In this document: positions 5,351-45,130 of the stretch, one piece after another
Layout: every line of letters starts with the position of its first letter
Numbering within the stretch: the first letter of the stretch is position 1
Assembly: GCA_032622095.1 (NCBI GenBank)
Contig: CP136061.1
Coordinates: 558,001 to 622,000, forward strand
Source: Siphonodentalium dalli
Lineage: Eukaryota; Mollusca; Scaphopoda; Gadilida; Siphonodentaliidae
DNA length: 64,000 nucleotides
Direction: 5' to 3'
Notes under the pieces: generated by a model
What the model saw: the letters and a program-made list of their open reading frames with translations, nothing else
Databases searched by the model: none
Told to the model about the DNA's origin: nothing
Made by a program: the position numbers and the translations under genes

Positions 5351-5644
5351 TTAACTCTTTCAGTGCCAGGGGCCGATCTCATCGGACCTAATTTACGGTC
5401 TGTAAAATCGACCCTAAAAAAATAAAAAATGAGTTTGTTTTTTTTAGATTTTTTTTTTTTGGGGTTGAATTTTTTTGGGGTATGCTTAGCATGCTATAGC
5501 GAATTTAACTGGATAAAACCTTAGGGGCATGTTATAACTCAAAACTATCACCCAGTATTCATAGTATTAATTTTGATGTCCATGAAAAACGTAAGATTCC
5601 ATGGCACTAAACCTACAAAATAAGTCTGGCACTGAAAGAGTTAA
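5351..5644. mobile_element. piggyBac-type MITE 1 (TTAA target)
   Basis: Starts TTAACTCTTTCAGTGCCA and ends TGGCACTGAAAGAGTTAA, an inverted repeat of 18 bp including the TTAA. TTAA target duplications with a CYCTTTCAGTGCCA terminus are typical of piggyBac-derived MITEs. There is no ORF. Confidence 0.75.
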
Positions 5645-5721
5645 TAAACCATTTAATATTTGAACAGAATAAGCTAACTGGTATTGGTCAATGAGTATAG
5701 CAGAATATGAACTCTATGACT

Positions 5722-5996
5722 TTAACCCTCTCAGTGCCAGGGGCCGATCTCATCGGCCCTAATTTACGGTCTGTAAAATCAGCCCTAAATTTTTATTATT
5801 TTTTTTAGATTTTAAAAAAATTATTAAAATTGTAAAAAATTGTCAAAAATAATAACAAATGATGAAAAATTGTTAGGACAATGCATTCTCTTATATATGC
5901 GAGGCGACCTACGGTCGACTCGAATATATAAGAGAATGCATTGGCACATGGTATCTGGGTTGATACAAAAATCGGACCTGGCACTCAAAGGGTTAA
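5722..5996. mobile_element. piggyBac-type MITE 2 with internal hairpin
   Basis: Starts TTAACCCTCTCAGTGCCA and ends TGGCACTCAAAGGGTTAA, and shares about 50 bp of left-end sequence with the MITE at 5351. A long internal hairpin spans 5879-5943 with arms CAATGCATTCTCTTATATA and TATATAAGAGAATGCATTG. The same hairpin stem occurs in the MITE at 61038. The 68-codon frame at 5840-6046 falls across it and is chance. Confidence 0.75.
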
Positions 5997-6917
5997 ATCG
6001 TCATTTACATCATTTCGATGGCTTGGTTGTTAGTATATCAGACTAGCAGCAAGTGGCTTTTTTCTTTTGATTTTAACCGATCTACCTTGATAATCAACAT
6101 TCAAAAAGTCTAATAAAGTACTGTGTATGCCACTCTGAGGCCTCAAAAGCAGTCATCATCTCCTGGTCTGTGATCATCTCATGTTCAGTGATTATATTGA
6201 AGTATGTATTGATTGAAAGCATAATTTACTGTAGAACACACACTTAAGCTTGTAGTACATGTATGTACATGTATATAGTGTACCGGTATATAAATGTAAT
6301 ATATGTTGTGGTGGTGTTATTCAAAATTATTTCAAATCTGTGCTTTTATGTAAATATACCTGTAGTTTATTTGTGCATAAAGTGTTAAAATAACAGCATG
6401 AGAGGAAAACCTCTATGCACTTAAACATTTAGTATAAATACACAGTTTACCATTGTGATCAAGATAAACAAGTAACAAGTAACACGTCTGAGTTTGTTCG
6501 ATATCAACCATTACTAGCACATTTATTTTGTATTAGGTATATAATTTTGTCAACTAACATGTCGCAGTTTCATTGCATCACAACTATGTTTTGCATCCGA
6601 AATTTCTATTGAAATTCCCAAACTTTATTCACAATGGTACTATATATAAAACCTGAAATTCCCAAACAACCAAGTTCCCTTTTTGGGAGCCACATGATAT
6701 ATGTTAACTTTAATCACATATTTAGCATCATTTGATTGCGGTTTTGTTGCATGTTTTTGGTAAATTGAAGCCCCATGATGATCAGTTTATGATTCACCCA
6801 CTGACAGAAGGTCACAAAAGTTTCTACAAAAAATTATTGAGGTCACAGTTTCAAAGGTTTTGGAAAGTAAATTTTTGGAAAGTGAAAGTGACTTGCTTGC
6901 ACATGTACATTTTTCAG
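5997..6917. other. Upstream intron of the first visible cassette exon
   Basis: Unique AT-rich DNA. From about 6620 to the splice acceptor at 6916-6917 it is clearly homologous to 55800-56100, which precedes the exon at 56101. The exons at 6918, 14266 and 56101 therefore share an intron lineage distinct from the U1-U4 exons. The acceptor context is ACATGTACATTTTTCAG. Confidence 0.6.
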
Positions 6918-7070
6918 GACAAACTTTTGATGCTGTTTGTTACAAAATCCCAGAGAACTCGTGTGGCATTGACTTGACCTGTACAACTCTCTCTGGAGGT
7001 GGAGGAGATAAATGTAGATGCACAGAGAGCACTAAATACTGGAATTCAGTCAGCGGTTCCTGTGTTAATC
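6918..7070 (+). CDS. Cassette exon 1: six-cysteine EGF/EB-like module
   Basis: The acceptor AG is at 6916-6917 and the donor GTAAGT at 7071; length 153 bp, phase 1-1, no stop. It encodes QTFDAVC, then C-x7-C-x5-C-x10-C-x-C-x13-C with SGGGGDKCRC in the middle and YWNSVSGSC at the end. It differs from the majority module at several sites (KIPENS for KTPDES, TESTKY for TDSNKY, SVSGS for SGSGS). There is only one donor, with no amplified array. Read-through past the donor gives Arg-Lys then TAA. Confidence 0.8.
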
Positions 7071-7882
7071 GTAAGTAAACCGTACAAATGATTTAAACTA
7101 GTCATTCAAATCTCCATTCTAATTGATTCCATTAACTAATAGCAGATAGATGTGTCAGTAGATATCCAAATATTTATGCCATTAATTGACTACTATTGTA
7201 ACTAGAGATTTAACTTTCCACGTGTGGAACTCAGATACATTCATGGGACTCAAGTAATAATCATTGTTTTATAGGTAACCAATAAGTGGTAAGACAGTAA
7301 AAAGTCATAATAAATAATCTATCATGTATTGTTCAAATCTTTCAACAGGGCATTTAACACTCGAACATCCACCACTTCACTAGAACATATTTGGCAAACT
7401 TGAAAAGTGTTTTTTGAAAGAACCACCAGGTCTATTTAGCTCATATTTAATATTGAGGCTCCTTTGATGATGTGTGATTCAGATTTGTTCAATCAGGGTC
7501 ACCAGGTCAAGTAGGTGCAAGGCCAGCTACATTACTCTTTCTCTCTATAGTAGTTCATAATATGTCTTCTATGCAAGAATCAAATGGCCTATTTGGTTAT
7601 ATTTGGTATGAAACTACCTTGGGTTACAGATTTGTGAAAATGGGATCACAAAGTCAAATAAGGGCAGAGCATAACTATTTCACCACATAGTAATTCTTAA
7701 AATATGTTTGAAAGAACTAGTTGGCTTACTTAGCATGGAATTTTCTTGTTTGACTGCAATTCAGATTTTTAAAAATGGGGTCACCTGGTCAAATAGGAGC
7801 CAAACGAAGGACAGTTGTGATCCTTCGCAAGGACCATCAGGTCTGTTTTACGGATATTTAGTATTATTATGAAGTGTTTATT
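7071..7882. other. Intron with degenerate ~145-bp repeats
   Basis: After a short unique part, the phrase GGGTCACCWGGTCAAATAGG recurs at about 7497, 7650 and 7784, roughly 135-155 bp apart, separated by similar AT-rich spacers. In copy 2 the series continues to about 15264. This is another degenerate tandem-core family. No exon is recognised. Confidence 0.55.
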
Positions 7883-8043
7883 GGGATGATTATGAGCCGG
7901 GTACGATGTGGGTAAGAATGTGAATGGGGACGATTATGAGCCGGGCATAATTAGGGTAAGAAAGCGAATGGGGACAATTATGAGCCGGGCCTAATTAGGG
8001 TAAGAAAGCGAATCGGGACAATTATGAGCTGAGTACGATTAGG
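7883..8043. repeat. 45-bp minisatellite, copy 2 left part
   Basis: Array remnant right of the duplication joint. It has fewer units than 431-698 because the joint cut the array. Confidence 0.8.
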
Positions 8044-9368
8044 CAGGGTTTACGCCAAGGGGAAATTAATGAGTCCGTATTGGGGAAACACATAACGTGA
8101 CGGGACGACCATGGTTCTTCCTGTCGGGCGAAAATTTTGTTATTTGACACTGAAAAGTAGCCATTTCCTTGCACCTGAGTGTCCCATAAAGCAATCCAAA
8201 GCTACGTATATTACGCAAGTCGATCATTTTCCGTGGGTGCATTAATTATGTTGATGGTATCCAAATAATTAATCATGTAATTACGCACGTAAGACTGCCT
8301 TCTGATTGAATACTATATCAAGCTACAAGTTACAGTGTTTAAAAATTTATAACTTACAATAAGATTCCGTATAATGAAACTAAACACTAAAAAGCATCTA
8401 TGCATTGTCCAATACTACCTAGCTGGGAGAATTAAGTATTTCCTAAAATTTCAAGTAGCTTCCGTGAAAATGAAACTGATATATTCCATGTATTCTGTCA
8501 ATCGTAAAACTATTTGTGCACTGTGACATCATATATACTGCAGGGTTTGTCTGCAGGAGATATTTATAGCGGCGAAATACGAATGGTAGCCAAATCTTTC
8601 AAACTCGGAACGCATAGCTTGTCAATAGTCTGTATTAGTCCAACAACTGACGACCGCTGCTATAGAGTTTTAGCCAACGTGTTATAAAATATAATTGAGT
8701 TTTGGCGGGAAATGGGAACATGTGCGCCGTTGTTTGTGTTTGGGGACCCAGGCGGGACAACGAAACTATTATTGACTGTACTTTGACTTGATCTCCATAT
8801 TGGGGGGGGGGGGGGGGGCATGGTTTTTGTGTTTATCCTCCATGCATGTAATATGGGTCAAATGAATGATTAGGTCACTATGATTTGGGACAGGTTCCGT
8901 ATTATAACAGTACGATAGCACGGGATCTCTTGGTAGGAGTACCGGGGCCGCCTGTTGGCGTATGTTGATCCCTACTCTGCCTAACTCAGCAATTCGGCAT
9001 TCTTTGATCAAATTATGTAATCGTACGATAGCACGGGATCTCCGAGCGTGAGTAGTTTCAACCACAGAAATCCCGTGCAAAATAATATCCGTACTCAGCA
9101 GTCCGACATTCTTTGATGTTACCGCGACATTTATTACGCTGTATATAACGTCGTTATTTCAATGCACACCAAACATTACGTTGTAGTTTTGGCGCTTTGA
9201 TTTCAATTGACCCGCTTTTTCACCAGTATTCTGTTTAACCCCCCCAACTCCCGTTGCAGCTGGATTTTTGATGACATATTGCTACTGACTATTGGTACAT
9301 GTATGAATCAAACAGATCATCTGCGAGGGGAATGGGTCCGTGGGACGGACCCGCTGGCGGAAACCCTG
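8044..9368. mobile_element. hAT-like element, duplicated copy
   Basis: Copy of the element at 699, carried by the tandem duplication, with the same TIRs and the same flanking GATTAGG. It is 5 bp longer, mainly because of a longer G-run near 8802. That run shortens the accompanying minus-strand frame, showing the frame is not conserved. Confidence 0.75.
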
Positions 9369-9555
9369 GATTAGGGTACGAAATCTAAAATAGGGATGAT
9401 TATGAGCCGGGTACGATGAGGGTAAGAATGCGAATGGGGATGATTATGAGCCGGGCATAATTAGGGTATGAAAGCGAATGGGGACAATTATGAGCCGGGC
9501 ATAATTAGGGTAAGAAAGCGAATCAGGACGATTATGAGCCGGGCATAATTAGGGG
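9369..9555. repeat. 45-bp minisatellite, copy 2 right part
   Basis: Duplicate of 2019-2205, following the second hAT-like element. Confidence 0.8.
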
Positions 9556-10690
9556 ACTATCTCAAGCCTTGAAAGATATTTGAGATTCAAAGGATACAAA
9601 GACGGTGTGAACCGAATTCCTCTCTTTTGTCATTCAAATAAAGTTGATGCAGTAAAAATGAAGTAACTAATACATGGTAACAAGCTGCAGGAAAGTGACG
9701 AGTTAACGGACAATGATATTCAGGCAACTATTTGATTGTGGTCTACATGGCACCAGGAATGGTTCCAAAATTTTGGACGGTTTATTCTGATCGCAAACAG
9801 TTTCTATTCCAGAATTAACATGAACTGAATTTACTGTTCAGAATTTCTAATTATTTTTAATCGATTCATTAAATACATGAAAAAGAAAAATGTTATCAAC
9901 CATATAACAGTATACCGATTATAATCTGTAAGATTTTCAATACTGTTACTGTTAACGTCATTTTTTTCTATAATCGGTAAACCTTGAAGACGGCATTATC
10001 GTGGTTACAGGTCATATTGGCCTGTTCACACATTGTGGTTTACTTTTATTGGAATAAAAAGAAACTCTTTGGTTTCTTTACACCACAGTTATCTTTCAGT
10101 TTCAAGAAACTGCTCATTCTTCACTTACTGGTATGTCACTTCTTTCCTGATGTCATTTGCCAAAAATTTCATTAAATCGCTACCTGGGACAAAATACAGC
10201 CCAAAATTATATTGCAAGTTATAATTGCATCATTCTGTGCTATTTTTAAACCACTGAATGCGTGGGACAGCTCATTATTTCCCGGGGTGTTATCGAGTGG
10301 GAATGATTGATCACATTCCTAAAGGTTGATTCAAATGTACATGATTTATAATAATTCTTCCAGGAAGTGAATAATATTTTTATAAGTTAAATACTTTGAA
10401 AGCAATACACCTTATTTCCTGGCATATAATAAAAGCATTATGCATCACACCTGGCAGAACATTCCAACTTAACAACACATGATCTGCGCGAGTCAGTAGG
10501 GGTTGTTTCAAGCTCTTGGATGTATCCACTAAATGATGCTTCCATAACTATCACAATTATTACCTGCATTTGAGATCATCATACCTTGTTACGAATCCAT
10601 GCATGATGCATGCAAACAAATGATTCATTGCCACTGTTTGTTAATATATAATTGTATAAAATGGAGCATTGGGTGTGTTTCCTTATTTAT

Positions 10691-11886
10691 TATACCCCCT
10701 TTAAAAAAAAAAGGGTGGTATACTGTTTTGCACCCGTCCGTCCGTGCGTCCGCCTGATGTCTGTTCATGTCATAACTTGAACAGTAGTGCTCGGATCTCA
10801 ATGAAATTAGGTATGGATGTTCACTACCATGAGGACATTAAATAGAGGTTTCCATCGTTTTGTTCGGATTTTCCATTCTAGAGTTATTCATCTTTGTTTA
10901 TCTGGAAATAGTGGCTTTTTGGTCTGTCTGGTGTCTGTTCATGTCGTAACTTCAACAGTTGGGCTGGGATCTCAACCAAATTTGGTGTGGATGTTCACAA
11001 CTATAAGGACATTAAATAGAGGGTTACATCGTTTTGTTCGGATTTTCCATTCTAGAGTTATTTATCTTTGTTTATCTTGAAATGTTGGTTTTTCGGTCCG
11101 TCCGATGTCTGTTCATGTCATAACTTGAACAGTAGTGCTCGTATCGCAATGAAATTTGGTACGGATGTTGACTACTATGAGAGTATTCAATAGTGGGTTC
11201 CATCGTTTTGTTTTGATTTTCCATTCTAGAGTTATTGATCTTTGTTTATCTGGAAATGTTGGCTTTTTGGTCTGTCTGGTGTCTGTTCATGTTGTAACTT
11301 CAACAATTGTGCTGGGATCTCAATGGAATTTGGTATGGATGTTCACTGCTATGAGGACATTCAATAGGGGGTTCTATTGTTTTGCACCGCTCTTTCTTTC
11401 TAGAGTTATTCATCTTTGTTTATCTGGAAATGTTGGCTTTTTAGTCCGTCTGGTGTCTGTTCATGTTGTAACTTCAACAATTGTGCTGGGATCTCAATGG
11501 AATTTGTTATGGATATTCACTGCTATGAGAACATTCAATAGGGGGTTCCATTGTTCTGTTCCGCTTTTCCATTCTAGAGTTATTCATCTTTATTTATCTG
11601 GAAATGTTGGTTGTTTGGTCCATCCGATGTCTGTTCAGCTCATAACTTGAAAAGTAATGCTCGGAACTCAATTAAATTTTGTATGGATGTTCACCACTAT
11701 GAGGACATTTAATGGCACACTTAAAAGTTTGTTTTGGTTTTTTTTTCTATAGTTATCTTTGTTTATATGAAAATGCTGATTTCTGGGGCCATATGTCTGA
11801 GTATAGCCGTCATAAGTTATAGATGTGCCCACACTAGGCGGTATGGCACGAGGGGGTATGCGCCGGACGACAGTTCATCTCTTGTT
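10691..11886. repeat. 174-bp tandem-core element, copy 2
   Basis: Duplicate of 3341-4540 with one GTCC step fewer in the microsatellite. The 174-bp period is unchanged. Confidence 0.8.
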
Positions 11887-12697
11887 GTAAGCTGTGTAGC
11901 TATTTGATTTCCTAAAAAAACAGTCGACTTGTGTACCAAACGATCACTACTCAGCGCGGCTTTTAAGAGATTAGATGAAATAATCGGTGTTACGGTATAC
12001 CATATTTTGGTATGGTTTTAGGATTACCACTGTATTTTTATGCTTGAATTCCACCCAGAACTATATCTTTGTATTTCTAATTTCTGTACCCCCCCCCCCC
12101 CCCCACCACCAAATGGCCCAGCAGAAACTCTGCATAATGACCAACATCATTTAATTATCTTTATAAAACTCAAAACTAAATAAACTCCTCAAAAGACATT
12201 GTATTAAATAGACTTTAAATAAACTTTAAAAAAACATTTTTAGTTCCAAATTCACAATAAAGTGTTTAGGGTCAGCAGTTCAAAATAGGGTTGGTCGGGT
12301 TATCCGAACAAAGATCTCATTTTTTAGGCTTCAACAACTCAGTATCGATAAATATAATGATAGATATGGATGTTCTCATAAATTTTCAGTTGTAAACCCC
12401 TGTGAAAAATTGCTTTCAAAACACTTTGAAATCAGATCCTTGATATGGTTGACTAGTCGACCATTAGTCAACTAGGGGCTGTTGACTTGTATGATCTGTT
12501 TAATATTAGCGATGGGATGAATGGATACATGCTACATGTTTTGTTCAGTCATCACAGGAGATTAAGACATCTTTCAAATTAAATCAGAAAATTCAGAAAT
12601 CTCAGTGTTAAGCGACCCTTGCTGGGTATACTGGGTGCGGTGCACTTGTTATGAATGTTTTATACCGTAACTCTGGGTATGACAAGGGTATTAGGGA

Positions 12698-12991
12698 TTA
12701 ACTCTTTCAGTGCCAGGGGCCGATCTCATCGGACCTAATTTACGGTCTGTAAAATCGACCCTAAAAAAATAAAAAATGAGTTTGTTTTTTTTAGATTTTT
12801 TTTTTTTGGGGTTGAATTTTTTTGGGGTATGCTTAGCATGCTATAGCGAATTTAACTGGATAAAACCTTAGGGGCATGTTATAACTCAAAACTATCACCC
12901 AGTATTCATAGTATTAATTTTGATGTCCATGAAAAACGTAAGATTCCATGGCACTAAACCTACAAAATAAGTCTGGCACTGAAAGAGTTAA
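12698..12991. mobile_element. piggyBac-type MITE 1, copy 2
   Basis: Duplicate of the MITE at 5351, with identical TTAA-bordered termini. Confidence 0.75.
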
Positions 12992-13068
12992 TAAACCATT
13001 TAATATTTGAACAGAATAAGCTAACTGGTATTGGTCAATGAGTATAGCAGAATATGAACTCTATGACT

Positions 13069-13343
13069 TTAACCCTCTCAGTGCCAGGGGCCGATCTCAT
13101 CGGCCCTAATTTACGGTCTGTAAAATCAGCCCTAAATTTTTATTATTTTTTTTAGATTTTAAAAAAATTATTAAAATTGTAAAAAATTGTCAAAAATAAT
13201 AACAAATGATGAAAAATTGTTAGGACAATGCATTCTCTTATATATGCGAGGCGACCTACGGTCGACTCGAATATATAAGAGAATGCATTGGCACATGGTA
13301 TCTGGGTTGATACAAAAATCGGACCTGGCACTCAAAGGGTTAA
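13069..13343. mobile_element. piggyBac-type MITE 2, copy 2
   Basis: Duplicate of the MITE at 5722, including the internal hairpin. Confidence 0.75.
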
Positions 13344-14265
13344 ATCGTCATTTACATCATTTCGATGGCTTGGTTGTTAGTATATCAGACTAGCAGCAAG
13401 TGGCTTTTTTTCTTTTGATTTTAACCGATCTACCTTGATAATCAACATTCAAAAAGTCTAATAAAGTACTGTGTATGCCACTCTGAGGCCTCAAAAGCAG
13501 TCATCATCTCCTGGTCTGTGATCATCTCATGTTCAGTGATTATATTGAAGTATGTATTGATTGAAAGCATAATTTACTGTAGAACACACACTTAAGCTTG
13601 TAGTACATGTATGTACATGTATATAGTGTACCGGTATATAAATGTAATATATGTTGTGGTGGTGTTATTCAAAATTATTTCAAATCTGTGCTTTTATGTA
13701 AATATACCTGTAGTTTATTTGTGCATAAAGTGTTAAAATAACAGCATGAGAGGAAAACCTCTATGCACTTAAACATTTAGTATAAATACACAGTTTACCA
13801 TTGTGATCAAGATAAACAAGTAACAAGTAACACGTCTGAGTTTGTTCGATATCAACCATTACTAGCACATTTATTTTGTATTAGGTATATAATTTTGTCA
13901 ACTAACATGTCGCAGTTTCATTGCATCACAACTATGTTTTGCATCCGAAATTTCTATTGAAATTCCCAAACTTTATTCACAATGGTACTATATATAAAAC
14001 CTGAAATTCCCAAACAACCAAGTTCCCTTTTTGGGAGCCACATGATATATGTTAACTTTAATCACATATTTAGCATCATTTGATTGCGGTTTTGTTGCAT
14101 GTTTTTGGTAAATTGAAGCCCCATGATGATCAGTTTATGATTCACCCACTGACAGAAGGTCACAAAAGTTTCTACAAAAAATTATTGAGGTCACAGTTTC
14201 AAAGGTTTTGGAAAGTAAATTTTTGGAAAGTGAAAGTGACTTGCTTGCACATGTACATTTTTCAG

Positions 14266-14418
14266 GACAAACTTTTGATGCTGTTTGTTACAAAATCCCA
14301 GAGAACTCGTGTGGCATTGACTTGACCTGTACAACTCTCTCTGGAGGTGGAGGAGATAAATGTAGATGCACAGAGAGCACTAAATACTGGAATTCAGTCA
14401 GCGGTTCCTGTGTTAATC
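14266..14418 (+). CDS. Cassette exon 2: six-cysteine module
   Basis: Copy of the exon at 6918 inside the 7.35-kb duplicate; I see no difference between them over the 153 bp. The acceptor TTTTTCAG, donor GTAAGT and 1-1 phase are kept, so transcription through both copies would add two identical modules. If the duplication is an assembly artefact, this exon is not a separate locus. Confidence 0.75.
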
Positions 14419-15898
14419 GTAAGTAAACCGTACAAATGATTTAAACTAGTCATTCAAATCTCCATTCTAATTGATTCCATTAACTAATAGCAGATAGATG
14501 TGTCAGTAGATATCCAAATATTTATGCCATTAATTGACTACTATTGTAACTAGAGATTTAACTTTCCACGTGTGGAACTCAGATACATTCATGGGACTCA
14601 AGTAATAATCATTGTTTTATAGGTAACCAATAAGTGGTAAGACAGTAAAAAGTCATAATAAATAATCTATCATGTATTGTTCAAATCTTTCAACAGGGCA
14701 TTTAACACTCGAACATCCACCACTTCACTAGAACATATTTGGCAAACTTGAAAAGTGTTTTTTGAAAGAACCACCAGGTCTATTTAGCTCATATTTAATA
14801 TTGAGGCTCCTTTGATGATGTGTGATTCAGATTTGTTCAATCAGGGTCACCAGGTCAAGTAGGTGCAAGGCCAGCTACATTACTCTTTCTCTCTATAGTA
14901 GTTCATAATATGTCTTCTATGCAAGAATCAAATGGCCTATTTGGTTATATTTGGTATGAAACTACCTTGGGTTACAGATTTGTGAAAATGGGATCACAAA
15001 GTCAAATAAGGGCAGAGCATAACTATTTCACCACATAGTAATTCTTAAAATATGTTTGAAAGAACTAGTTGGCTTACTTAGCATGGAATTTTCTTGTTTG
15101 ACTGCAATTCAGATTTTTAAAAATGGGGTCACCTGGTCAAATAGGAGCCAAACGAAGGACAGTTGTGATCCTTCGCAAGGACCATCAGGTCTGTTTTACG
15201 GATATTTAGTATTATTATGAAGTGTTTATTGGTGTCTGGGATTCAAATTTATTCAGGTGGGGTCACCAGGTTAAATAGGGTGGGACCAGGGACTTAACTA
15301 TATGTCTCTATAGTAATTCTTAAAATGTCTTCTCAAGAGAGGTTGGACTATTTAGCTTACATATAGTATGGAGGATCCTTTAGTGACTGAGATTCAGATG
15401 GGTACCAGAATCAGTGAGCCTCATATATCCCAGAAACAAATTCAGCATGTGTATGCATCAATTCCTAATCATCCATTCTGATGAAATTTAGGTAATCGTG
15501 CATACTCATTTAAATCAGGTACATCCACATGTATCACATATGAATATAAATAATCATTCATTCTGATTAAAATAGATCACAAAGATTCTATTAATTTGTT
15601 AGCCAAGATATACCAAAATTATGCCAATAGTGAACAATGGGGTTCTTGATTTTCTTATTTAAAGTGATCCAACCATTTTATTTATTCAAATCCTTCAATT
15701 TGGGAGAATAAACTTTGGGAGTTGCATTTCCTATATACAACTGGAATTAATAACAACCATCTCTTAAAGCAGATAGTTTGTATTCTTGTTGTCTAGTCAC
15801 ATTTTTCAAATTCCATCTAGACCCTTTTTAGTAAAGATTTACTCCTCCGATTTAGTATATAAAACGGTTTGAGGATCACTGACACAGTCTCTTATATA
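14419..15898. other. Intron with ~145-bp repeats, then unique DNA
   Basis: The GGGTCACC-type degenerate repeats run to about 15440. The rest to 15898 is AT-rich with no recognised feature. The sequence beyond 15231 exists only once and lies right of the duplication. Confidence 0.5.
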
Positions 15899-16256: not shown

Positions 16257-16409
16257 TACAAACCTTTGGTGAGACTTGTTACAAAACCCCAGATGAATCG
16301 TGTGGCATAGACTTGACCTGTACAACTCTCTCTGGAGGTGGAGGAGATAAATGTAGATGCACAGACAGCAATACATACTGGAATTCAGGCAGCGGTTCCT
16401 GTGTTAACC
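16257..16409 (+). CDS. Cassette exon 3: six-cysteine module
   Basis: The acceptor is TTCCACATTTTACAG, the donor GTAAGT at 16410; 153 bp, phase 1-1, open. It encodes QTFGETC, KTPDES, SGGGGDKCRC, TDSNTYW and SGSGSC, the majority form of the module. It is followed immediately by the longest perfectly regular donor array, of 20 more 62-bp units. Confidence 0.85.
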
Positions 16410-17649
16410 GTAAGTAAACCGTACATACACCAATAAATACTGGAATTCAGGCAGCGGTTCCTGTGTTAACCGTAAGTAAACCGTACATACACCAATAAAT
16501 ACTGGAATTCAGGCAGCGATTCCTGTGTTAATCGTAAGTAAACCGTACATACACCAATAAATACTGGAATTCAGGCAGCGGTTCCTGTGTTAATCGTAAG
16601 TTAACCGTACATACACCAATAAATACTGGAATTCAGGCAGCGGTTCCTGTGTTAACCGTAAGTAAACCGTACATACACCAATAAATACTGGAATTCAGGC
16701 AGCGGTTCCTGTGTTAATCGTAAGTAAACCGTACATACACCAATAAATACTGGAATTCAGGCAGCGGTTCCTGTGTTAATCGTAAGTAAACCGTACATAC
16801 ACCAATAAATACTGGAATTCAGGCAGCGGTTCCTGTGTTAATCGTAAGTAAACCGTACATACACCAATAAATACTGGAATTCAGGCAGCGGTTCCTGTGT
16901 TAATCGTAAGTAAACCGTACATACACCAATAAATACTGGAATTCAGGCAGCGGTTCCTGTGTTAACCGTAAGTAAACCGTACATACACCAATACATACTG
17001 GAATTCAGGCAGCGGTTCCTGTGTTAATCGTAAGTAAACCGTACATACACCAATAAATACTGGAATTCAGGCAGCGGTTCCTGTGTTAACCGTAAGTAAA
17101 CCGTACATACACAAATAAATACTGGAATTCAGGCAGCGGTTCCTGTGTTAATCGTAAGTAAACCGTACAGACACCAATAAATACTGGAATTCAGGCAGCG
17201 GTTCCTGTGTTAATCGTAAGTAAACTGTACATACACCAATAAATACTGGAATTCAGGCAGCGGTTCCTGTGTTAATCGTAAGTAAACCGTACATACACCA
17301 ATAAATACTGGAATTCAGGCAGCGGTTCCTGTGTTAATCGTAAGTAAACCATACATACACCAATACATACTGGAATTCAGGCAGCGGTTCCTGTGTTAAT
17401 CGTAAGTAAACCGTACAGACACCAATACATACTGGAATTCAGGCAGCGGTTCCTGTGTTAATCGTAAGTAAACCGTACATACACCAATAAATACTGGAAT
17501 TCAGGCAGCGGTTCCTGTGTTAATCGTAAGTAAACCATACATACACCAATACATACTGGAATTCAGGCAGCGGTTCCTGTGTTAATCGTAAGTAAACCAT
17601 ACATACACCAATAAATACTGGAATTCAGGCAGCGGTTCCTGTGTTAATC
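16410..17649. repeat. Donor-site minisatellite A1 (20 x 62 bp)
   Basis: Exactly 1240 bp, 20 units of 62 bp with no indel. GTAAGT recurs every 62 bp from 16410 to 17650, giving 21 donors including the exon's own. Each unit holds the last 41 bp of the exon (from ATACTGGAATTCAGGCAGCG), the donor and 21 bp of intron (to ACATACACCAAT). Variation is limited to a few substitutions, such as AAC/AAT before the donor and CATACA/CAGACA. All three + frames contain stops in the unit. Confidence 0.95.
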
Positions 17650-18389
17650 GTAAGTAAACCATACAAATGATTTGAACTAGTTATTTAAATCTACATTCTA
17701 ATTGATTCCATTAACTAATAGCAGATAGATGTGTCGGTAGATATACAAATATTTATGCCATTAATTGACTACTATTGTAACTAGAGATTTAACTTTCCAT
17801 GTGTGGATGTGGAGCTCAGATACATTCATGGGACTCAAATAAAAATCATTGTTTTATAGGTAACCAATAAGTGGTAAGACAGTAAAAAGTCATCATTATC
17901 ACAATTAAATGCTGGCTAACGACTCAAAAGCTTTTTGATATATTCTTGAGGAAATTATCATAATTTGATAATGTTATTTATCACATGATTAGCACTATTT
18001 TCCTATGTAATATTCGAGCATAATAGACACGTGCAATATCATTGCGTGCAATGACTTCACGCTGCCCTTTGCGCCAAAGTTTGCAGTTCGCTGGCTGCAG
18101 TTAATTATTGTACTTTTTGATAAAAATATAGCGATTATATGATCATGTGATAAAAAGTATCTCAAACTCGTTCTATTTTATACGTAATTTATCAAACTTG
18201 TCCACTAAATTCTATTTGAGCCTCGTTAAACCTCGGCTCAAATCGAATTTAGTGAACTCGGTTGATAAATGCCGTATAAAATTGTAACTCGTTTGAGATC
18301 CTCTATTTATAAATTATAACCTACAATGAAGGTCCGTCCCTTTAAACAATTTCAATAGTGAAAATGACTCTTGCTTCCACATTTTTCAG
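17650..18389. other. Short intron between exons 3 and 4
   Basis: The intron proper: after the array it runs through a conserved segment (AACCAATAAGTGGTAAGACA, then GCTGGCTAACGACTC) that recurs in every unit, then the MITE at 17980, then the acceptor TTCCACATTTTTCAG. It is homologous to 36174-36907 and, without the MITE, to 49781-49960 and 50190-50405. Confidence 0.7.
17980..18306. mobile_element. Foldback MITE in intron (filled site)
   Basis: Present between GATAATGTTATTT and ATAAATTATAACC, where the paralogous introns at 45640, 49880 and 50310 read straight through. It starts ATCACATGATTAGCAC. The right half (18159-18299) is a long hairpin whose arms begin ATCTCAAACTCG and end CGTTTGAGAT. 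The same element occurs in inverse orientation at 45131. There is no ORF. Confidence 0.75.
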
Positions 18390-18542
18390 TACAAACCTTT
18401 GGTGAGACTTGTTACAAAACCCCAGATGAATCGTGTGGCATTGACTTGACCTGTACAACTCTCTCTGGAGGTGGAGGAGATAAATGTAGATGCACAGACA
18501 TCAATACATACTGGAATTCAGGCAGCGGTTCCTGTGTTAACC
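18390..18542 (+). CDS. Cassette exon 4: six-cysteine module
   Basis: 153 bp, phase 1-1, open, with acceptor TTCCACATTTTTCAG and donor GTAAGT. It has TDINTYW instead of TDSNTYW, an Ile also found in the exons at 29848 and 36908, which marks these second-position exons as one lineage. It is followed by donor array A2. Confidence 0.85.
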
Positions 18543-19620
18543 GTAAGTAAACCGTACAGACAGCAATAAATACTGGAATTCAGGCAGCGGTTCCTGTGTT
18601 AATCGTAAGTAAACCGTACATACACCAATACATACTGGAATTCAGGCAGCGGTTCCTGTGTTAACCGTAAGTAAACCGTACATACACCAATAAATACTGG
18701 AATTCAGGCAGCGGTTCCTGTGTTAACCGTAAGTAAACCGTACATACACCAATAAATACTGGAATTCAGGCAGCGGTTCCTGTGTTAATCGTAAGTAAAC
18801 CGTACAGACATCAATAAATACTGGAATTCAGGCAGCGGTTCCTGTGTTAATCGTAAGTAAACCGTACATACACCAATACATACTGGAATTCAGGCAGCGG
18901 TTCCTGTGTTAATCGTAAGTAAACCGTACATACACCAATACATACTGGAATTCAGGCAGCGGTTCCTGTGTTAACCGTAAGTAAACCGTACATACACCAA
19001 TAAATACTGGAATTCAGGCAGCGGTTCCTGTGTTAACCGTAAGTAAACCGTACATACACCAATACATACTGGAATTCAGGCAGCGGTTCCTGTGTTAATC
19101 GTAAGTAAACCGTACATACAACAATAAATACTGTAATTCAGGCAGCGGTTAATTCCTGTGTTAATCGTAAGTAAACCGTACAGACAGCAATAAATACTGG
19201 AATTCAGTCAGCGGTTCCTGTGTTAACCGTAAGTAAACCGTACATACACCAATAAATACTGGAATTCAGGCAGCGATTAATTCCTGTGTTAATCGTAAGT
19301 AAACCGTACATACACCAATAAATACTGGAATTCAGGCAGCGGTTCCTGTGTTAATCGTAAGTAAACCGTACATACACCAATAAATACTGGAATTCAGGCA
19401 GCGGTTAATTCCTGTGTTAACCGTAAGTAAACCGTACATACACCAATAAATACTGGAATTCAGGCAGCGGTTAATTCCTGTGTTAACCGTAAGTAAACCG
19501 TACATACACCAATAAATACTGGAATTCAGGCAGCGGTTAATTCCTGTGTTAATCGTAAGTAAACCGTACAGACACCAATAAATACTGGAATTCAGGCAGC
19601 GGTTAATTCCTGTGTTAATC
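18543..19620. repeat. Donor-site minisatellite A2 (17 units, 62 and 66 bp)
   Basis: Eighteen GTAAGT donors from 18543 to 19621. The first nine intervals are 62 bp; later ones include six of 66 bp, which carry an extra AATT in GCGGTTAATTCCTG. The 66-bp form clusters at the 3' end. Because 66 bp is 22 codons, a minus-strand frame (19332-19637) stays open with a 22-residue period. I treat that as an artefact. Confidence 0.95.
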
Positions 19621-21307
19621 GTAAGTAAACCGTACAAATGATTTGAACTAGTTATTTAAATCTACATTCTAATTGATTCCATTAACTAATAGCAGATAGA
19701 TGTGTTGGTAGATATCCAAATATTTATGCCATTAATTAATTACTATTGTAATTAGAGATTTAAAGTTCCAAGTGTGGAACTTAGATACATTCATGGGACT
19801 CAAGTAATAATCTTTTTCCGATTTTAAACCGTTCTTCTTTTTGTAATCAGTTTGTCCTGAATATTTGTTTCTAAATTTCTAGATGTATTTTTATTTCTTT
19901 TTTGCATGCCATTTAGTAGCACAATCACTAACAAAACATCAACTGAAAACATATACTGTTGACACTCTATGTATTCTTAAACCTAACTGTTTAACACTGT
20001 AATTGTAGGGGTATAACAATATTACACATATATATGACCATAATTATGAGTCTAGAGTTAATCATAACAAACATAGTTCATTGACATCAATACAAATATA
20101 ACAAAATTCTATCCCTAATCATGATTGGAGTCCTAATAAAAATTCTAGCAATAATACTAACTCTAATCATATCAACAACCCATACCATGAATATATCAAC
20201 ACTCATTACCTAAAAATATCACTGTCCATAAGGCCAACAGTTGAATGAAATCATTGAAAAAAAAGTTTGACATGACATAGTCAAAGAAGAGTGATTTTTG
20301 CGTTTTTGTTTGGAGTTTTCTTGTTTATGTATCATATGTAACAATCATTTGGACTATATTGTTGAACCTTGTCCTAATGTCCTATCATTTCTGATGGAGC
20401 TCTGAGAGTGATAACAGCGGAAAGCTGTTGGGCAGATGATAGTGCCGTGGGCCCACCGATGGTTATGAAACAAACCAATCGTAAATAATAATATAAAACT
20501 CGATATCTACATTTCATCAGAAGTAGCGGCTACTAACACAAGCAAAGCAATTATCCATTTACTCCAGAAGACAATGTGTGAGTCTCTCCTGTGTTTTATC
20601 GGTGAAAACTCACGAAGATTGCAATGTTTCAATATTTTGAAATATTTGATTCAATTTCATACATAGATGATATTTTCGCCACAATGGATTTATATCTGGC
20701 ATGATATATAGTTACATGAAAGAGATATGGATAGTTGAAAATGGTTGCTATAGTATGCCTATGGGAATGACCATCATTCGTGTATAAATACACACTGTTT
20801 TTGCCATAAGGGTAGTTGTCAAACAAGATATATCTTTGCTATATTTTACGTAGAAACAGTGCCATATATTCACCATTTCATAAACCAGCTAGCCTATATC
20901 GAACTCACTCCATGACTGATGAAGTATATATAATCTATGAACTTATAGGTATCATTCTATTTGAGTTCATAAGGTCAAAGGTCAGGGACATGTATAGAGG
21001 GTTTCCTTTGGGGTGGGGGCTGTGTTCACTTTGGGAATTCCAACTGCACCCCCCCTCATTGAATTCCTTTCGCATTGCCCCTTGCACTCCAACTGCTCCC
21101 ATACAGGCCTGATAGCTTTTTCTGAATGGCTCTTGTGGTCACTATAGCCAGATGGAAGACAGAACCATGGTTCTTTATACCCGGTATGAGAAAATTTAGA
21201 GATCTGATCCAGAAAATTGCATAATCCTAACAGCTAGTGGTCTAACTCCTGACAAATTAACATGGCCATTGGAGTACGTGAGACAAGGACACACCAGGTC
21301 AACCATG

Positions 21308-22168
21308 CATGGACCAGCCTAGGCCTGATTTTCAGGGCGAAGTGACTTCTCCCTGTCACAAAATAGGGCGAATTCAGAGATTTCCAGGGCGAAATGCGTT
21401 GGCAAAATTGAAATCCGACCGCACTGTAGTCGCCTATAAAAGGCTATATAAAGAAATTAGGAGATATGTAATATTTAAATTAAAATGGTGAAACAATGGT
21501 TCAAATGTGGAAGCTTTATGTTCAAATCATCACTCTAATAACTATGAATAATGTCCAAATAGAATTGTGAGAGAATGGTTTTGAAAGAACGGCATTTTCA
21601 CAACCGCTTATGAATACAAAAAGAAATAAGAAACGACGCTTGTGAATACAAAAAGAAATAAATATTAGACAATGCTTATGAATACGAAAAAAATGCTAAA
21701 ATACAAAAGAAATCTTGAACATTTTCACTCATTAAAAGTCACTAACATGGGATTTAATTTGTTTTCAAAGCTAATCTGGCCTTTACATAATTTAACAAAG
21801 GGGTGATGATCTGATGTAAGGTGTAGAGTTGTAATCTTCAGGTGTGATAATCTCAAAATCACAAGTCACTGGACACCTGACGATGTATTCACAGCTGTCT
21901 GCAATCAACACTCAGGTGTGAATGTGCTCCCAAATCGGATTAATACAGCTGTTAATAGTAACTATGGTGTTATCTACGACAGTGTCAATGGATAACTGGG
22001 TTCTATCAATGTTGGCAGTAAATATAGTGGGTGAATATTTTGCCGATTTTCTTAGGTAAACTTCGAAAATTTCAGGGCGACTTAAACTTTGCCGGCTGCA
22101 AAATTAGGGCGAAGTGAGCAAGAATAGGGAGACTACTTTGCCCACGTCGCCCTCTCGGCTGGTCCCTG
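21308..22168. mobile_element. hAT-type non-autonomous element, U1 copy (861 bp)
   Basis: Bounded by CAACCATG at 21300-21307 and 22169-22176, a perfect 8-bp target duplication. The right end is GGCTGGTCCCTG; the left end here is CATGGACCAGCC, one G mutated relative to the CAGGGACCAGCC of the U2 and U3 copies. Near both ends GGGCGAAGTG-type motifs repeat. There is no transposase frame. It inserted before the units were duplicated, since U2 and U3 carry it at the same site. Confidence 0.8.
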
Positions 22169-22390
22169 CAACCATGTATGGTTCAGCCCAGGATGAGAAA
22201 ATTTTGAAACATGAACAAGACAATTACAAAATCCTAGCATCTATAGATTGGCGTCAAACTTTCCTAGTGTTGGAAATTTTAAATGTCATACCCCCCCCTT
22301 ATGTTGGAAATTTTTCAACTGATTACCATTTCCATCCACAATTTTGATCAGATGTAGTAAAATATTATTTTCTGAAACTATTTAGCAGTT

Positions 22391-23216
22391 TTTAGCTCTA
22401 CTTGTAAAGTTTGAGCTATTGCCATTGTTTGGTATCCGTTGTCCGTGTGTGCATGGAGACGTCCATCAACAATTTCCATCAGCATGGGTTACAAGTCGTA
22501 CCTTTTGTTGGATCATTATCAAATTTGTCGTGGCTGTTGACATTGACATGTAGATGGGAATGAGTCATTTTGGGGTCGTTTGGCAACAAAACATGGCCAC
22601 CAGCAGCCATCTTGGATTTCAAAATTCAATCAATTAGCAAGGGCTGCGACAGGCCTGAGTGTTCCTCTGATCATCTTGAAATTTGTTGTGTATTTTAATA
22701 TGGAAATGTAGATGGGAACGAGTCATTTTGGGGTCATTCAACCATAAAACATGACTGCCTGCAGCCATCTTGGATTTTACTCTTTGCATGACTAAATCCT
22801 TTGGCACGGGCTACAGGTCGTACCTTTGGTCAGATCATCATGAAATTTGTCATGGTGTTAATATAGACATGGAGATGGGAAACAGGTCATTTTGGGTCAT
22901 TCAACCATAAAACATGACCACTGGCAACCATTTTGGATTTTACTCTTTGCATGACTAAATCCTTTGGCATGAGTGAGCTACAGGTCATACTTTTGGTCAG
23001 ATCATTATGAAATTTGTCATAGCTCTTGACATTGACATGTAGATGTGAATGATTAATTTTGGGGTCATTCAGCAAAAAACATGACCAACAGTAGCCATCT
23101 TGGATTTCAAAATTCAAACTATTAGCACAGGCTACAAGCCAGAGTGTTTGTCTTATCATGAAATTTGCCATGGATGTTAATATTGACATGTAGATAGGGT
23201 TCAATAGTAGTTTTAC
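22391..23216. repeat. Tandem-core element (155-168 bp units), U1 copy
   Basis: The left end is an imperfect hairpin (AGCTCTACTT...AAGTTTGAGCT), followed by about five units, each with ATGAAATTTGTCATGG, TGACATGTAGATGGGA, GTCATTTTGGGGTCATTC and GCCATCTTGGATTT. Same family as 53580-55200 and 45997-46710. The minus-strand frame 22887-23204 across it is chance. Confidence 0.75.
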
Positions 23217-23787
23217 TACATGTGTATATGTTTTCAGAATATATCATCTCCAAAGCAACCTTTACAACTTACACTGGCAATACATGTAATTCACTGCGTG
23301 ATGACATTTCGCTACGTGATTAGTGGCCTATCAAAGCACTCTAGTGATCTATTCAATATCCAGGCCATCAGGATTCACTCTGATCGTAAAATGTTTTGGC
23401 TGTTATTTTAACATTTCTGAATTTTTTTATGGCCAATTTTCAGAAACCTTTGGCCAAATTGAAAAACAAAATATTGGATCATCATGAAAACCGAAACTAA
23501 AACAAAAATATAAAGAGACCCGCATAACCGATAATTTTATAAAAGTTATAATGGATATGTGATAGCCGCAAAAAATGAAATAGGTCTAGCCGGCAACATA
23601 TATCTAAATAAACGAGCACTGATATGCCTTGCTGGCAAAGTATATAAACATAAATGAGCACCGATTCGCCTGAAATTGTTTTAATTCCTGACATGCCACC
23701 ATAATTATTCTATTACACATGCAAGCCTACAGAATGCCCTTAATCAAGTTTAATAGTGAAAATGACTCTTGCTTCCACATTTTACAG

Positions 23788-23891
23788 TACAAACCTTTGG
23801 TGAGACTTGTTACAAAACCCCAGATGAATCGTGTGGCATTGACTTGACCTGTACAACTCTCTCTGGAGGTGGAGGAGATAAATGTAGATGC
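23788..23891 (+). pseudogene. Truncated cassette exon (U2, first position)
   Basis: The acceptor TTTTACAG and the first 104 bp of the module are intact, through the fourth cysteine to ...AAATGTAGATGC. The sequence then jumps to intron (TGGCTAACGACTC). The missing part is the last 49 bp, the splice donor, the array and the intron start. ATGC is present at both original breakpoints, so the joint is a 4-bp microhomology deletion. No donor lies at the edge, so the exon should be skipped or read into intron. Confidence 0.85.
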
Positions 23892-24366: not shown

Positions 24367-24519
24367 TACAAACCTTTGGTGAGACTTGTTACAAAACCCC
24401 AGATGAATCGTGTGGCATTGACTTGACCTGTACAACTCTCTCTGGAGGTGGAGGAGATAAATGTAGATGCACAGACAGCAATACATACTGGAATTCAGGC
24501 AGCGGTTCCTGTGTTAACC
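24367..24519 (+). CDS. Cassette exon 5 (intact): six-cysteine module
   Basis: 153 bp, phase 1-1, acceptor TTTTTCAG, donor GTAAGT, open throughout. Majority sequence with TDSNTYW. It is the only usable cassette exon of U2 and is followed by donor array A3. Confidence 0.85.
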
Positions 24520-25093
24520 GTAAGTAAACCGTACAGACAGCAATAAATACTGGAATTCAGGCAGCGGTTAATTCCTGTGTTAATCGTAAGTAAACCGTAC
24601 AGACACCAATAAATACTGGAATTCAGGCAGCGGTTCCTGTGTTAATCGTAAGTAAACCGTACATACATCAATAAATACTGGAATTCAGGCAGCGTTTCCT
24701 GTGTTAACCGTAAGTAAACCGTACATACACCAATAAATACTGGAATTCAGGCAGCGGTTCCTGTGTTAACCGTAAGTAAACCGTACAGACACCAATAAAT
24801 ACTGGAATTCAGGCAGCGGTTAATTCCTGTGTTAATCGTAAGTAAACCGTACAGACACCAATAAATACTGGAATTCAGGCAGCGGTTAATTCCTGTGTTA
24901 ATTGTAAGTAAACCGTACATACACCAATAAATACTGGAATTCAGGCAGCGGTTAATTCCTGTGTTAATCGTAAGTAAACCGTACATACACCAATAAATAC
25001 TGGAATTCAGGCAGCGGTTCCTGTGTTAATCGTAAGTAAACCGTACAGACACCAATACATACTGGAATTCAGGCAGCGGTTCCTGTGTTAATC
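24520..25093. repeat. Donor-site minisatellite A3 (9 units)
   Basis: Ten GTAAGT donors at 24520, 24586, 24648, 24710, 24772, 24838, 24904, 24970, 25032 and 25094. The intervals mix 62 and 66 bp. Confidence 0.95.
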
Positions 25094-26792
25094 GTAAGTA
25101 AACCGTACAAATGATTTGAACTAGTTATTTAAATCTACATTCTAATTGATTCCATTAACTAATAGCAGATAGATGTGTTGGTAGATATCCAAATATTTAT
25201 GCCATTAATTGACTACTATTGTAATTAGAGATTTAAAGTTCCAAGTGTGGAACTTAGATACATTCATGGGACTCAAGTAATAATCTTTTTTTTTTCTAAG
25301 AGTTTCCGATTTTAAACCGTTCTTCTTTTTGTAATCAGTTTGTCCTGAATATTTGTTTCTAAATTTCTAGATGTATTTTTATTTCTTTTTTGCATGCCAT
25401 TTAGTAGCACAATCACTAACAAAACATCAACTGAAAACATATACTGTTGACACTCTATGTATTCTTAAACCTAACTGTTTAACACTGTAATTGTAGGGGT
25501 ATAACAATATTACACATATATATGACCATAATTATGAGTCTAGAGTTAATCATAACAAACATAGTTCATTGACATCAATACAAATATAACAAAATTCTAG
25601 CCCTAATCTTGATTGGAGTCCTAATAAAAATTCTAGCAATAATACTAACTCTAATCATATCAACAACCCATACCATGAATATATCAACACTCATTACCTA
25701 AAAATATCACTGTCCATAAGGCCAACAGTTGAATGAAATCATTGAAAAAAAAGTTTGACATGACATAGTCAAAGAAGAGTGATTTTTGCGTTTTTGTTTG
25801 GAGTTTTCTTGTTTATGTATCATATGTAACAATCATTTGGACTATATTGTTGAACCTTGTCCTAATGTCCTATCATTTCTGATGGAGCTCTGAGAGTGAT
25901 AACAGCGGAAAGCTGTTGGGCAGATGATAGTGCCGTGGGCCCACCGATGGTTATGAAACAAACCAATCGTGAATAATAATATAAAACTCGATATCTACAT
26001 TTCATCAGAAGTAGCGGCTACTAACACAAGCAAAGCAATTATCCATTTACTCCAGAAGACAATGTGTGAGTCTCTCCTGTGTTTTATCGGTGAAAACTCA
26101 CGAAGATTGCAATGTTTCAATATTTTGAAATATTTGATTCAATTTCATACATAGATGATATTTTCGCCACAATGGATTTATATCTGGCATGATATATAGT
26201 TACATGAAAGAGATATGGATAGTTGAAAATGGTTGCTATAGTATGCCTATGGGAATGACCATCATTCGTGTATAAATACACACTGTTTTTGCCATAAGGG
26301 TAGTTGTCAAACAAGATATATCTTTGCTATATTTTACGTAGAAACAGTGCCATATATTCACCATTTCATAAACCAGCTAGCCTATATCGAACTCACTCCA
26401 TGACTGATGAAGTATATAAAATCTATGCACTTATAGGTATCATTCTATTTGAGTTCATAAGGTCAAAGGTCAGGGACATGTATAGAGGGTTTCCTTTGGG
26501 GTGGGGGCTGTGTTCACTTTGGGAATTCCAACTGCACCCCCCCCTCATTGAATTCCTTTCGCATTGCCCCTTGCACTCCAACTGCTCCCATACAGGCCTG
26601 ATAGCTTTTTCTGAATGGCTCTTGTGGTCACTATAGCCAGATGGAAGACAGAACCATGGTTCTTTATACCCGGTATGAGAAAATTTAGAGATCTGAACCA
26701 GAAAATTGCATAATCCTAACAGCTAGTGGTCTAACTCCTGACAAATTAACATGGCCATTGGAGTGAGACAAGGACACACCAGGTCAACCATG

Positions 26793-27648
26793 CAGGGACC
26801 AGCCTAGGCCTGATTTTCAGGGCGAAGTGACTTCGAATTCTCCCTGTCACAAAATAGGGCGAATTCGGAGATTTCCAGGGCGAAATGCGTTGGCAAAATT
26901 GAAATCCGACCGCACTGTAGTCGCCTATAAAAGGCTATATAAAGAAATTAGGAGATATGTAATATTTAAATTAAAATGGTGAAACAATGGTTCAAATGTG
27001 GAAGCTTTATGTTCAAATCATCACTCTAATAACTATGAATAATGTCCAAATAGAATTGTGAGAGAATGGTTTTGAAAGAACGGCATTTTCACAACCGCTT
27101 ATGAATACAAAAAGAAATAAGAAACGACGCTTGTGAATACAAAAAGAAATAAAAATTAGACAATGCTTATGAATACGAAAAAAATCCTAAAATACGAAAG
27201 AAATCTTGAACATTTTCACTCATTAAAAGTCCCTAACATGGGATTTAATTTGTTTTCAAAGCTAATCTGGCCTTTACATTATTTAACAAAGGGGTGATGA
27301 TCTGATGTAAGGTGTAGAGTTGTAATCTTCAGGTGTGATAATCTCAAAATCACAAGTCACTGGACACCTGACGATGTATTCACAGCTGTCTGCAATCAAC
27401 ACTCAGGTGTGAATGTGCTCCCAAATCGGATTAATACAGCTGTTAATAGTAACTATGGTGTTATCTACGACAGTGTCAATGGATAACTGGGTTCAATCAA
27501 TGTTGGCAGTAAATAGTGGGTGAATATTTTGCCGATTTTCTTAGGTAAACTTCGGAAATTTCAGGGCGACTTAAACTTCGCCGGCTGCAAAATTAGGGCG
27601 AAGTGAGCAAGAATAGGGAGAATACTTTGCCCTCTCGGCTGGTCCCTG
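26793..27648. mobile_element. hAT-type element, U2 copy (856 bp)
   Basis: Perfect 12-bp TIRs CAGGGACCAGCC / GGCTGGTCCCTG and perfect 8-bp duplication CAACCATG (26785-26792, 27649-27656). Best-preserved termini together with the U3 copy. Confidence 0.85.
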
Positions 27649-27871
27649 CAACCATGTATGGTTCAGCCCAGGATGAGAAAATTTTGAAACATGAACAAGA
27701 CAATTACAAAATCCTAGCATCTATAGATTGGCGTCAAACTTTCCTAGTGTTGGAAATTTTAAATGTCATACCCCCCCCCCCCTTATGTTGGAAATTTTTC
27801 AACTGATTACCATTTCCATCCACAATTTTGATCAGATGTAGTAAAATATTATTTTCTGAAACTATTTAGCA

Positions 27872-28700
27872 GTTTTTAGCTCTACTTGTAAAGTTTGAGC
27901 TATGTTTGGTATCCGTTGTCCGTGTGTGCATGGAGACGTCCATCAACAATTTCCATCAGCATGGGTTACAAGTCGTACCTTTTGTCGGATCATTATCAAA
28001 TTTGTCGTGGCTGTTGACATTGACATGTAGATGGGAATGATCGAGTCATTTTGGGGTCGTTTGGCAAAAAAACATGGCCACCAGCAGCCATCTTGGATTT
28101 CAAAATTCAATCAATTAGCAAGGGCTGCGACAGGCCTGAGTGTTCCTCTGATCATCTTGAAATTTGTTGTGTATTTTAATATGGAAATGTAGATGGGAAC
28201 GAGTCATTTTGGGGTCATTCAACCATAAAACATGACTGCCTGCAGCCATCTTGGATTTTACTCTTTGCATGACTAAATCCTTTGGCACGGGCTACAGGTC
28301 GTACCTTTGGTCAGATCATCATGAAATTTGTCATGGTGTTAATATAGACATGGAGATGGGAAACAGGTCATTTTGGGTCATTCAACCATAAAACATGACC
28401 ACTGGCAACCATTTTGGATTTTACTCTTTGCATGACTAAATCCTTTGGCATGAGTGAGCTACAGGTCATACTTTTGGTCAGATCATTATGAAATTTGTCA
28501 TAGCTCTTGACATTGACATGTAGATGTGAATGATTAATTTTGGGGTCATTCAGCAAAAAACATGACCAACAGTAGCCATCTTGGATTTCAAAATTCAAAC
28601 TATTAGCACAGGCTACAAGCCAGAGTGTTTGTCTTATCATGAAATTTGCCATGGATGTTAATATTGACATGTAGATAGGGTTCAATAGTAGTTTTACTAC
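27872..28700. repeat. Tandem-core element, U2 copy
   Basis: Copy of 22391-23216, with an 11-bp gap near its left end and small indels. Confidence 0.7.
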
Positions 28701-45033: not shown

Positions 45034-45130
45034 GTAAGTAAACCGTACAAATGATTTAAACTAGTTATTTAAATCTCCATTCTAATTGATTCCATTAACT
45101 AATAGCAGATAGATGTGTCGGTAGATATAC

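Follow-up and report, generated by a model that had tools for sequence, protein, structure and literature searches.

Tandem copies of a 5′ splice site behind eight of twelve related exons in Siphonodentalium dalli

Why should an exon be followed by as many as 21 further copies of its own 5′ splice site, and which of these sites would then be used? The question is raised by a locus of the scaphopod Siphonodentalium dalli, of which we analysed a window of 64,000 nucleotides from one assembly (GCA_032622095.1, contig CP136061.1, positions 558,001-622,000 of the forward strand; coordinates below count from the first letter of the window). A 153-bp exon occurs on the + strand of the window in 12 full copies, which start at 6918, 14266, 16257, 18390, 24367, 29848, 34667, 36908, 44757, 45740, 50406 and 56101. 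All 12 have the acceptor TTTTTCAG or TTTTACAG, the donor GTAAGT and phase 1-1, and each carries an open frame of 50 whole codons with a six-cysteine module. The open frame together with the splice sites suggests that these exons are coding, and because they are of phase 1-1, skipping of a single exon would keep the frame. Most of them are arranged in a way that reads as six A-B exon pairs: A 16257 with B 18390 (pair 1), an A remnant at 23788 with B 24367 (pair 2), an A remnant at 29269 with B 29848 (pair 3), A 34667 with B 36908 (pair 4), A 44757 with B 45740 (pair 5) and an orphan unit at 49959 with B 50406 (pair 6). The full and broken copies, and one different exon near the end of the window, are as follows.

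6918-7070, + strand: diverged exon copy without array (empty site)
14266-14418, + strand: exon copy without array, within the second copy of a 7.35-kb duplication
16257-16409, + strand: putative coding exon A1, 153 bp, Cys-rich module with six cysteines, phase 1-1, acceptor TTTTACAG
18390-18542, + strand: putative coding exon B1
23788-23891, + strand: broken exon A copy; acceptor and first 104 bp remain, exon end, donor and array missing
24367-24519, + strand: putative coding exon B2
29269-29372, + strand: broken exon A copy, resembling the remnant at 23788
29848-30000, + strand: putative coding exon B3
34667-34819, + strand: putative coding exon A4
36908-37060, + strand: putative coding exon B4
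44757-44909, + strand: putative coding exon A5
45740-45892, + strand: putative coding exon B5, without array
49959-50019, + strand: orphan unit with donor at 50004, no exon front or acceptor 5′ of it
50406-50558, + strand: putative coding exon B6
56101-56253, + strand: exon copy without array, donor GTAAGTTG, 3′ flank differing from the others
61813-61941, + strand: different Cys-rich exon, phase 1-1, candidate next exon of the same gene

Neither Pfam nor the PDB sequences, each searched at E up to 1, gave a match to the 50-residue module encoded by the exon family. The EB module (PF01683) did not reach its cut-off, the open reading frame at 61728 scoring 10.5 bits against 24.3. Among viral contigs, in which 11 stretches had matched a pattern, no relatives were confirmed, and Rfam gave no match at the gathering score and the tRNA search none.

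Extra units follow 8 of the 12 full exons and amount to 82 units and 5,200 bp, the array-less exons being those at 6918, 14266, 45740 and 56101; copy number at this putative coding-exon boundary thus varies from 0 to 21 across the 12 copies.

16410-16415, + strand: first donor GTAAGT of A1, in frame CGT AAG TAA (Arg-Lys-stop)
16426-17665, + strand: array after A1, 20 extra 62-bp units, GTAAGT in 20/20
18559-19636, + strand: array after B1, 17 extra units, 6 of them 66 bp
24536-25109, + strand: array after B2, 9 extra units, 4 of them 66 bp
30017-30528, + strand: array after B3, 8 extra units, 4 of them 66 bp; ATAAGT at 30125 and 30323
34836-36189, + strand: array after A4, 21 extra units, 13 of them 66 bp; 22 donors behind the exon
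37077-37332, + strand: array after B4, 4 extra units, 2 of them 66 bp; ATAAGT at 37185
44926-45049, + strand: array after A5, 2 extra units
50575-50636, + strand: array after B6, 1 extra unit

Unit length is 62 bp in 53 of the 82 extra units and, by way of a 4-bp insert, 66 bp in the remaining 29. Behind A1, the first donor at 16410 is followed by 20 donors at a spacing of exactly 62 bp, from 16472 to 17650, and all 20 read GTAAGT. The amplification of a donor into a minisatellite, which the first-pass annotation had described for this exon, is therefore real, and its counts of 17, 9, 8, 21, 4, 2 and 1 extra units at seven other exons were reproduced. The array does lie where it had been placed, at 16410-17649, with its boundaries shifted, for the extra units occupy 16426-17665. 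Tandem Repeats Finder reported a single row, 16361-19636 with a score of 2803, that covers the first two arrays and the stretch separating them. Array sequence accounts for 63% of the intron behind 16257 and for 65% of the one behind 34667.

As had been said, the unit straddles the 5′ splice site; it consists of the last 46 bp of the exon and the first 16 bp of the intron, donor included. The earlier division into 41 bp of exon and 21 bp of intron does not agree with the junction, CCGTACA/GACAGC, and was probably taken from units in which GACAGC has mutated to TACACC. This junction has a 3-bp microhomology, ACA, common to both sides, and it is the same in all eight arrays. Within the exon the start of the unit reads TGC-ACA-GACAGC. 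In the introns of the array-less exons 6918, 14266 and 45740 the sequence is GTAAGTAAACCGTACA-AATG, and downstream of the last donor of the arrays it continues in the same way, with CCATACA in one array. Within the arrays themselves, GACAGC comes next after GTAAGTAAACCGTACA, or else a later form such as TACACC or GACACC. Because the junction is identical in 8/8 arrays, the simplest origin would be a single founding duplication that was copied together with the exon, and on the same ground an independent origin at eight exons was set aside. Hence, where the first-pass annotation had let the same event happen again at seven other exons, "was copied to" is the better wording. Alternatively, the identity may have come from repeated events at this microhomology or from conversion that spread the junction.

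The spacers record how the pairs spread. Those from B to the next A at 19637-23787, 25110-29268 and 30529-34666 (4,151, 4,159 and 4,138 bp) are mutually 98-99% identical, and the arrays 5′ of them have 17, 9 and 8 extra units. Between A and B, the spacers of pairs 1 and 4 are 97% identical, the remnants of pairs 2 and 3 match these two at 98%, and that of pair 6 matches at 90-94% over ∼310 bp; the spacer of pair 5 (45050-45739) is partly inverted relative to the corresponding one at 17666-18389. One common deletion removed the exon end, the donor and the array from the A remnants at 23788 and 29269, and exon 45740 may have lost its array or never have had one. When first units are counted, the eight array-bearing loci contain 90 units of 38 types, with runs of identical neighbours and with some types common to several arrays. 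The array at 29848 has the unit order 11 04 25 20 19 26 20 04 09, which starts (11 04 25 20) as does that of 36908 (11 04 25 20 20) and ends (04 09) as does that of 24367, and the flank 3′ of it agrees at 99% with that of 24367 and at 73% with that of 36908. This map points to exchange inside an array at least once, and arrays may promote such exchange. In another part of the window, a tandem duplication of 7.35 kb (535-7884 and 7880-15232, 99.8% identity) carries one family exon per copy, and is either very recent or an assembly duplicate.

GTAAGT is present at all 12 first donors and at 79 of the 82 extra donors, the remaining three reading ATAAGT. The window as a whole has 96 GTAAGT on the + strand and 13 on the − strand, and 92 of the 96 come from the exon family, as 12 first donors, 79 in arrays and one in the orphan unit, which excludes a chance origin. 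The donors had been called consensus, which holds on the intron side; on the exon side most have ACC or ATC in place of CAG. In 75 of the 82 extra units ACC or ATC stands 5′ of GTAAGTAA (50 ATC, 25 ACC), and the other seven comprise three with ATAAGT and four that differ otherwise. There are indeed 22 donor positions behind 34667, as claimed. Judged by sequence, the donors within one array look near-alike to U1. Exons of the locus have 1, 2, 3, 5, 9, 10, 18, 21 or 22 donor positions, with three of the donors mutated. An in-frame stop lies within three codons of the first donor in 11/12 exons, and the Arg-Lys-stop noted in the first pass is present in 8/8 array-bearing exons, so that a transcript using any later donor would stop there. 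The motif AATAAA occurs in 72/82 extra units and in 4/12 exons, and could matter if a polyadenylation site there were used; the idea of an intronic poly(A) array was rejected, since AATAAA codes for Asn-Lys in those four exons and so looks inherited rather than array-specific. Coding on the − strand of the arrays was also rejected, the open frames at 35105-35476 and 35625-36128 being explained by 66 being a multiple of three.

We then compared variation in units, donors and exons. The frame-breaking 4-bp insert is found in 29/82 extra units and in 0/12 exons (P = 0.016; P = 0.050 against only the eight array-bearing exons), the units not being independent in either comparison, and slow turnover of end units could explain this contrast. 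A change of G to T at −46 (Asp to Tyr) is carried by 57/82 extra units and 0/12 exons. Array units consequently look free of coding constraint. The donor hexamer of the arrays showed no significant conservation, with one extra allele in six sites against ∼2 expected from the 19 extra alleles in the other 56 unit sites (P = 0.40), and selection on array donors was therefore set aside as a candidate by alleles per site. Per cell (unit by site), where cells share descent, 0.6% varied in the donor, compared with 2.3% in the exon-derived part and 1.2% in the intron-derived part outside the donor; because the donor varies least in this count, a weak conservation of array donors could still be present. 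For the exons the evidence for selection is mixed and weakly supports it. Between 6918 and the array-bearing exons dN is 0.09-0.12 and dS 0.08-0.12, and 6918 shares 95% of the downstream flank of 16257 and only 90% of its exon; 56101, in contrast, is 96% identical to 16257 in the exon, with a downstream flank that aligns at ∼40%.

To explain the locus, we favour a boundary minisatellite that undergoes mutational turnover and is tolerated, since splicing would mostly go to the first donor or else leave out the exon without a change of frame; we give this reading a probability of roughly 0.6. As the sequence reads, tandem duplication, most simply in a single event, affected a 62-bp segment made of 46 bp from the exon end and 16 bp from the intron, the donor among them. 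The array then grew and shrank, and it was copied with its exon as the A-B pairs duplicated, with exchange inside an array at least once. The present arrays would be mostly tolerated products of mutation. Arrays of 17, 9 and 8 extra units despite near-identical spacers, and the loss of 3/82 donors, speak for such turnover. In splicing, the first donor would mostly be used, or the exon would be skipped in frame by its phase 1-1, and the array would be removed with the intron. Occasional use of a later donor is to be expected and would give an exon of 215 to 1,507 nt ending at Arg-Lys-stop, that is, stop-containing transcripts. If each array exon had a chance q of using a wrong donor, productive transcripts would fall as (1-q)^8, and hence, if protein is made from these exons, the first donor would have to win often at up to eight consecutive exons, or in-frame skipping would have to step in. 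Starting from the upstream acceptor, exon definition prefers a 153-nt exon over one of 215 to 1,507 nt and in this way favours the first donor. Of two comparable donors, however, the intron-proximal one is reported to be preferred, for reasons stated as unknown (PMC6002489, citing Roca 2013, in excerpt), which would favour the last donor and counts against use of the first. The two rules pull in opposite directions here. Moreover, the report that array length matters in human CBS (see below) would argue by analogy against full tolerance.

The explanation that we rank second, and hold to be unlikely, is a donor-dose rheostat. U1 snRNP would sit on many array donors, the surplus sites would compete with or trap the first donor, and array length would set inclusion, intron retention or the stop-containing share exon by exon. 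The first-pass annotation had suggested that the arrays might buffer U1 binding, slow splicing or set a ratio of productive to unproductive transcripts. It would fit the intactness of 79/82 extra donors and the strong differences in array length among exons, from 0 to 21. U1 is reported to cover 23 + 12 nt (PMC6002489), less than the spacing of 62-66 nt, so several donors could possibly be occupied at once, and an added downstream 5′ splice site was reported to yield more pre-mRNAs with two U1 snRNPs (PMC8724738, in excerpt). According to an excerpt of PMC8706089, an extra donor near the boundary led to intron retention, and decoy exons have multiple sites close to their border; for CBS, lower activity was reported with more units (PMC5188458). 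However, cryptic donors at other positions in the exon gave no retention in that same work (PMC8706089), which suggests that extra donors alone are insufficient. The array donors, moreover, show no significant conservation, and lengths of 17, 9 and 8 before spacers that are 98-99% identical are what turnover would be expected to leave. The more specific proposal of exon-specific rheostats, in which array length would tune inclusion or skipping of the Cys-rich module, or stop-containing transcripts, is decidedly improbable. If the rheostat were true, the gene would hold a length-coded, fast-mutating programme of module number.

It is improbable, too, that the locus is decaying or unexpressed, with arrays and broken exons as debris and donor number without consequence. 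The exon copies at 23788 and 29269 that have lost exon end, donor and array, the unit at 49959 without an exon, dN near dS in the most diverged pairs and a module that Pfam (E up to 1) and PDB sequences leave unmatched are what decay could look like, but the frame, the six cysteines, the acceptor and the donor are kept in 12/12 full exons, the exon at 56101 stays 96% identical to 16257 although its flank aligns at ∼40%, and a different Cys-rich phase 1-1 exon stands at 61813. That arrays were wrongly expanded or collapsed in assembly is very unlikely. Repeats are error-prone, and the 7.35-kb duplication with its 99.8% identity adjoins the arrays, but the eight arrays differ in length and comprise 38 unit types in ordered, partly shared blocks, which makes a copy error unlikely, although so similar a duplication nearby means that local errors may be present. 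A last reading, which would contradict the earlier statement that later donors cannot add residues, takes the units as 21-nt micro-exons of seven in-frame residues per 62-bp unit, and it can practically be dismissed: TTCAG ends 41 nt 3′ of the donor in 80/82 extra units, leaving 21 nt before the next donor in 51 and 25 nt in 29, but no pyrimidine tract lies 5′ of it, the frame is broken in 29/82 units, and 41 nt would be a very short intron in most animals.

We return to the favoured reading of tolerated turnover and ask how it compares with known systems. The first-pass annotation knew of no described case of this form, yet one exists in human CBS, where a 31-bp VNTR is named c.1444_1467+7(16_21) (PMC2630376), which we take to mean 16-21 copies of a unit with 24 exon and 7 intron bases. 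Its place is the boundary of exon 13 and intron 13 (PMC5188458, PMC1395315), and its units have a fixed length with single-base differences among them (PMC2630376). More units were reported to go with lower activity and higher homocysteine, in an array termed non-coding (PMC5188458). Going by its name, the CBS array resembles the present ones in that its unit runs from the end of a coding exon across the 5′ splice site into the first bases of the intron. CBS has this at one exon of one gene with a 31-bp unit (24 + 7), whereas here units of 62 or 66 bp (46 + 16) stand behind eight paralogous exons in 1 to 21 extra copies, with a stop codon directly after the first donor.

Internal tandem repeats at exon-intron boundaries have also been described in segmentally duplicated human genes (PMC2812944), and, like these in the excerpt, the present arrays are boundary minisatellites in recent paralogs with copy number unequal among them. 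In those genes the mean unit is 30 bp, transcripts were studied, and introns can arise anew; what the sequence alone shows here is repetition of the donor itself behind the exon. CBS 844ins68, as given in PMC2630376, is a single duplication at the start of an exon, in contrast to a donor array at an exon end. The decoy exons of PMC8706089 are similar in having surplus splice sites near a boundary, for which non-productive pairing was proposed there, and differ in being non-coding exons, whereas here copies of the exon's own donor follow it directly. As a candidate acceptor for a decoy exon, 80/82 units offer TTCAG, with no pyrimidine tract. Several donor arrays in one gene were not found among the matches listed when titles and abstract starts of the open-licence literature were searched, which is weak evidence. 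The form is thus already described, and what is new is the scale, namely eight dosages of near-equal donors behind near-identical exons at one locus. It is a second, larger case beside CBS, in which a boundary minisatellite has travelled with the exons of a tandem-exon gene and served for exchange. For the question of how splicing selects one among equal 5′ splice sites, the locus also provides a natural series, since near-identical exons differ in donor count and the effects of donor number and distance would be readable by ordinary RNA-seq without constructs.

Other repeats and one compositional feature accompany the locus. In the long intron after 36908, the stretch 38001-42000 has a G+C of 0.45 and 0.42, compared with 0.33-0.41 in the other 2-kb windows, and is perhaps an insertion; three open reading frames tested in it matched no Pfam entry at the curated cut-off. 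A 174-bp tandem satellite of 5.6 copies lies at 3402-4367 and again at 10748-11713, each with a 164-residue open frame on the + strand. Related blocks of a 158-165-bp tandem repeat are found at 22482-23107, 28150-28588, 33361-33986 and 53595-55142, the last with 9.6 copies. A 44-bp minisatellite occurs in four places of the duplicated region (435-698, 2039-2204, 7889-8029 and 9389-9554), and a 40-bp minisatellite of 15.1 copies, for which a period of 201 bp is also given, occupies 63083-63692.
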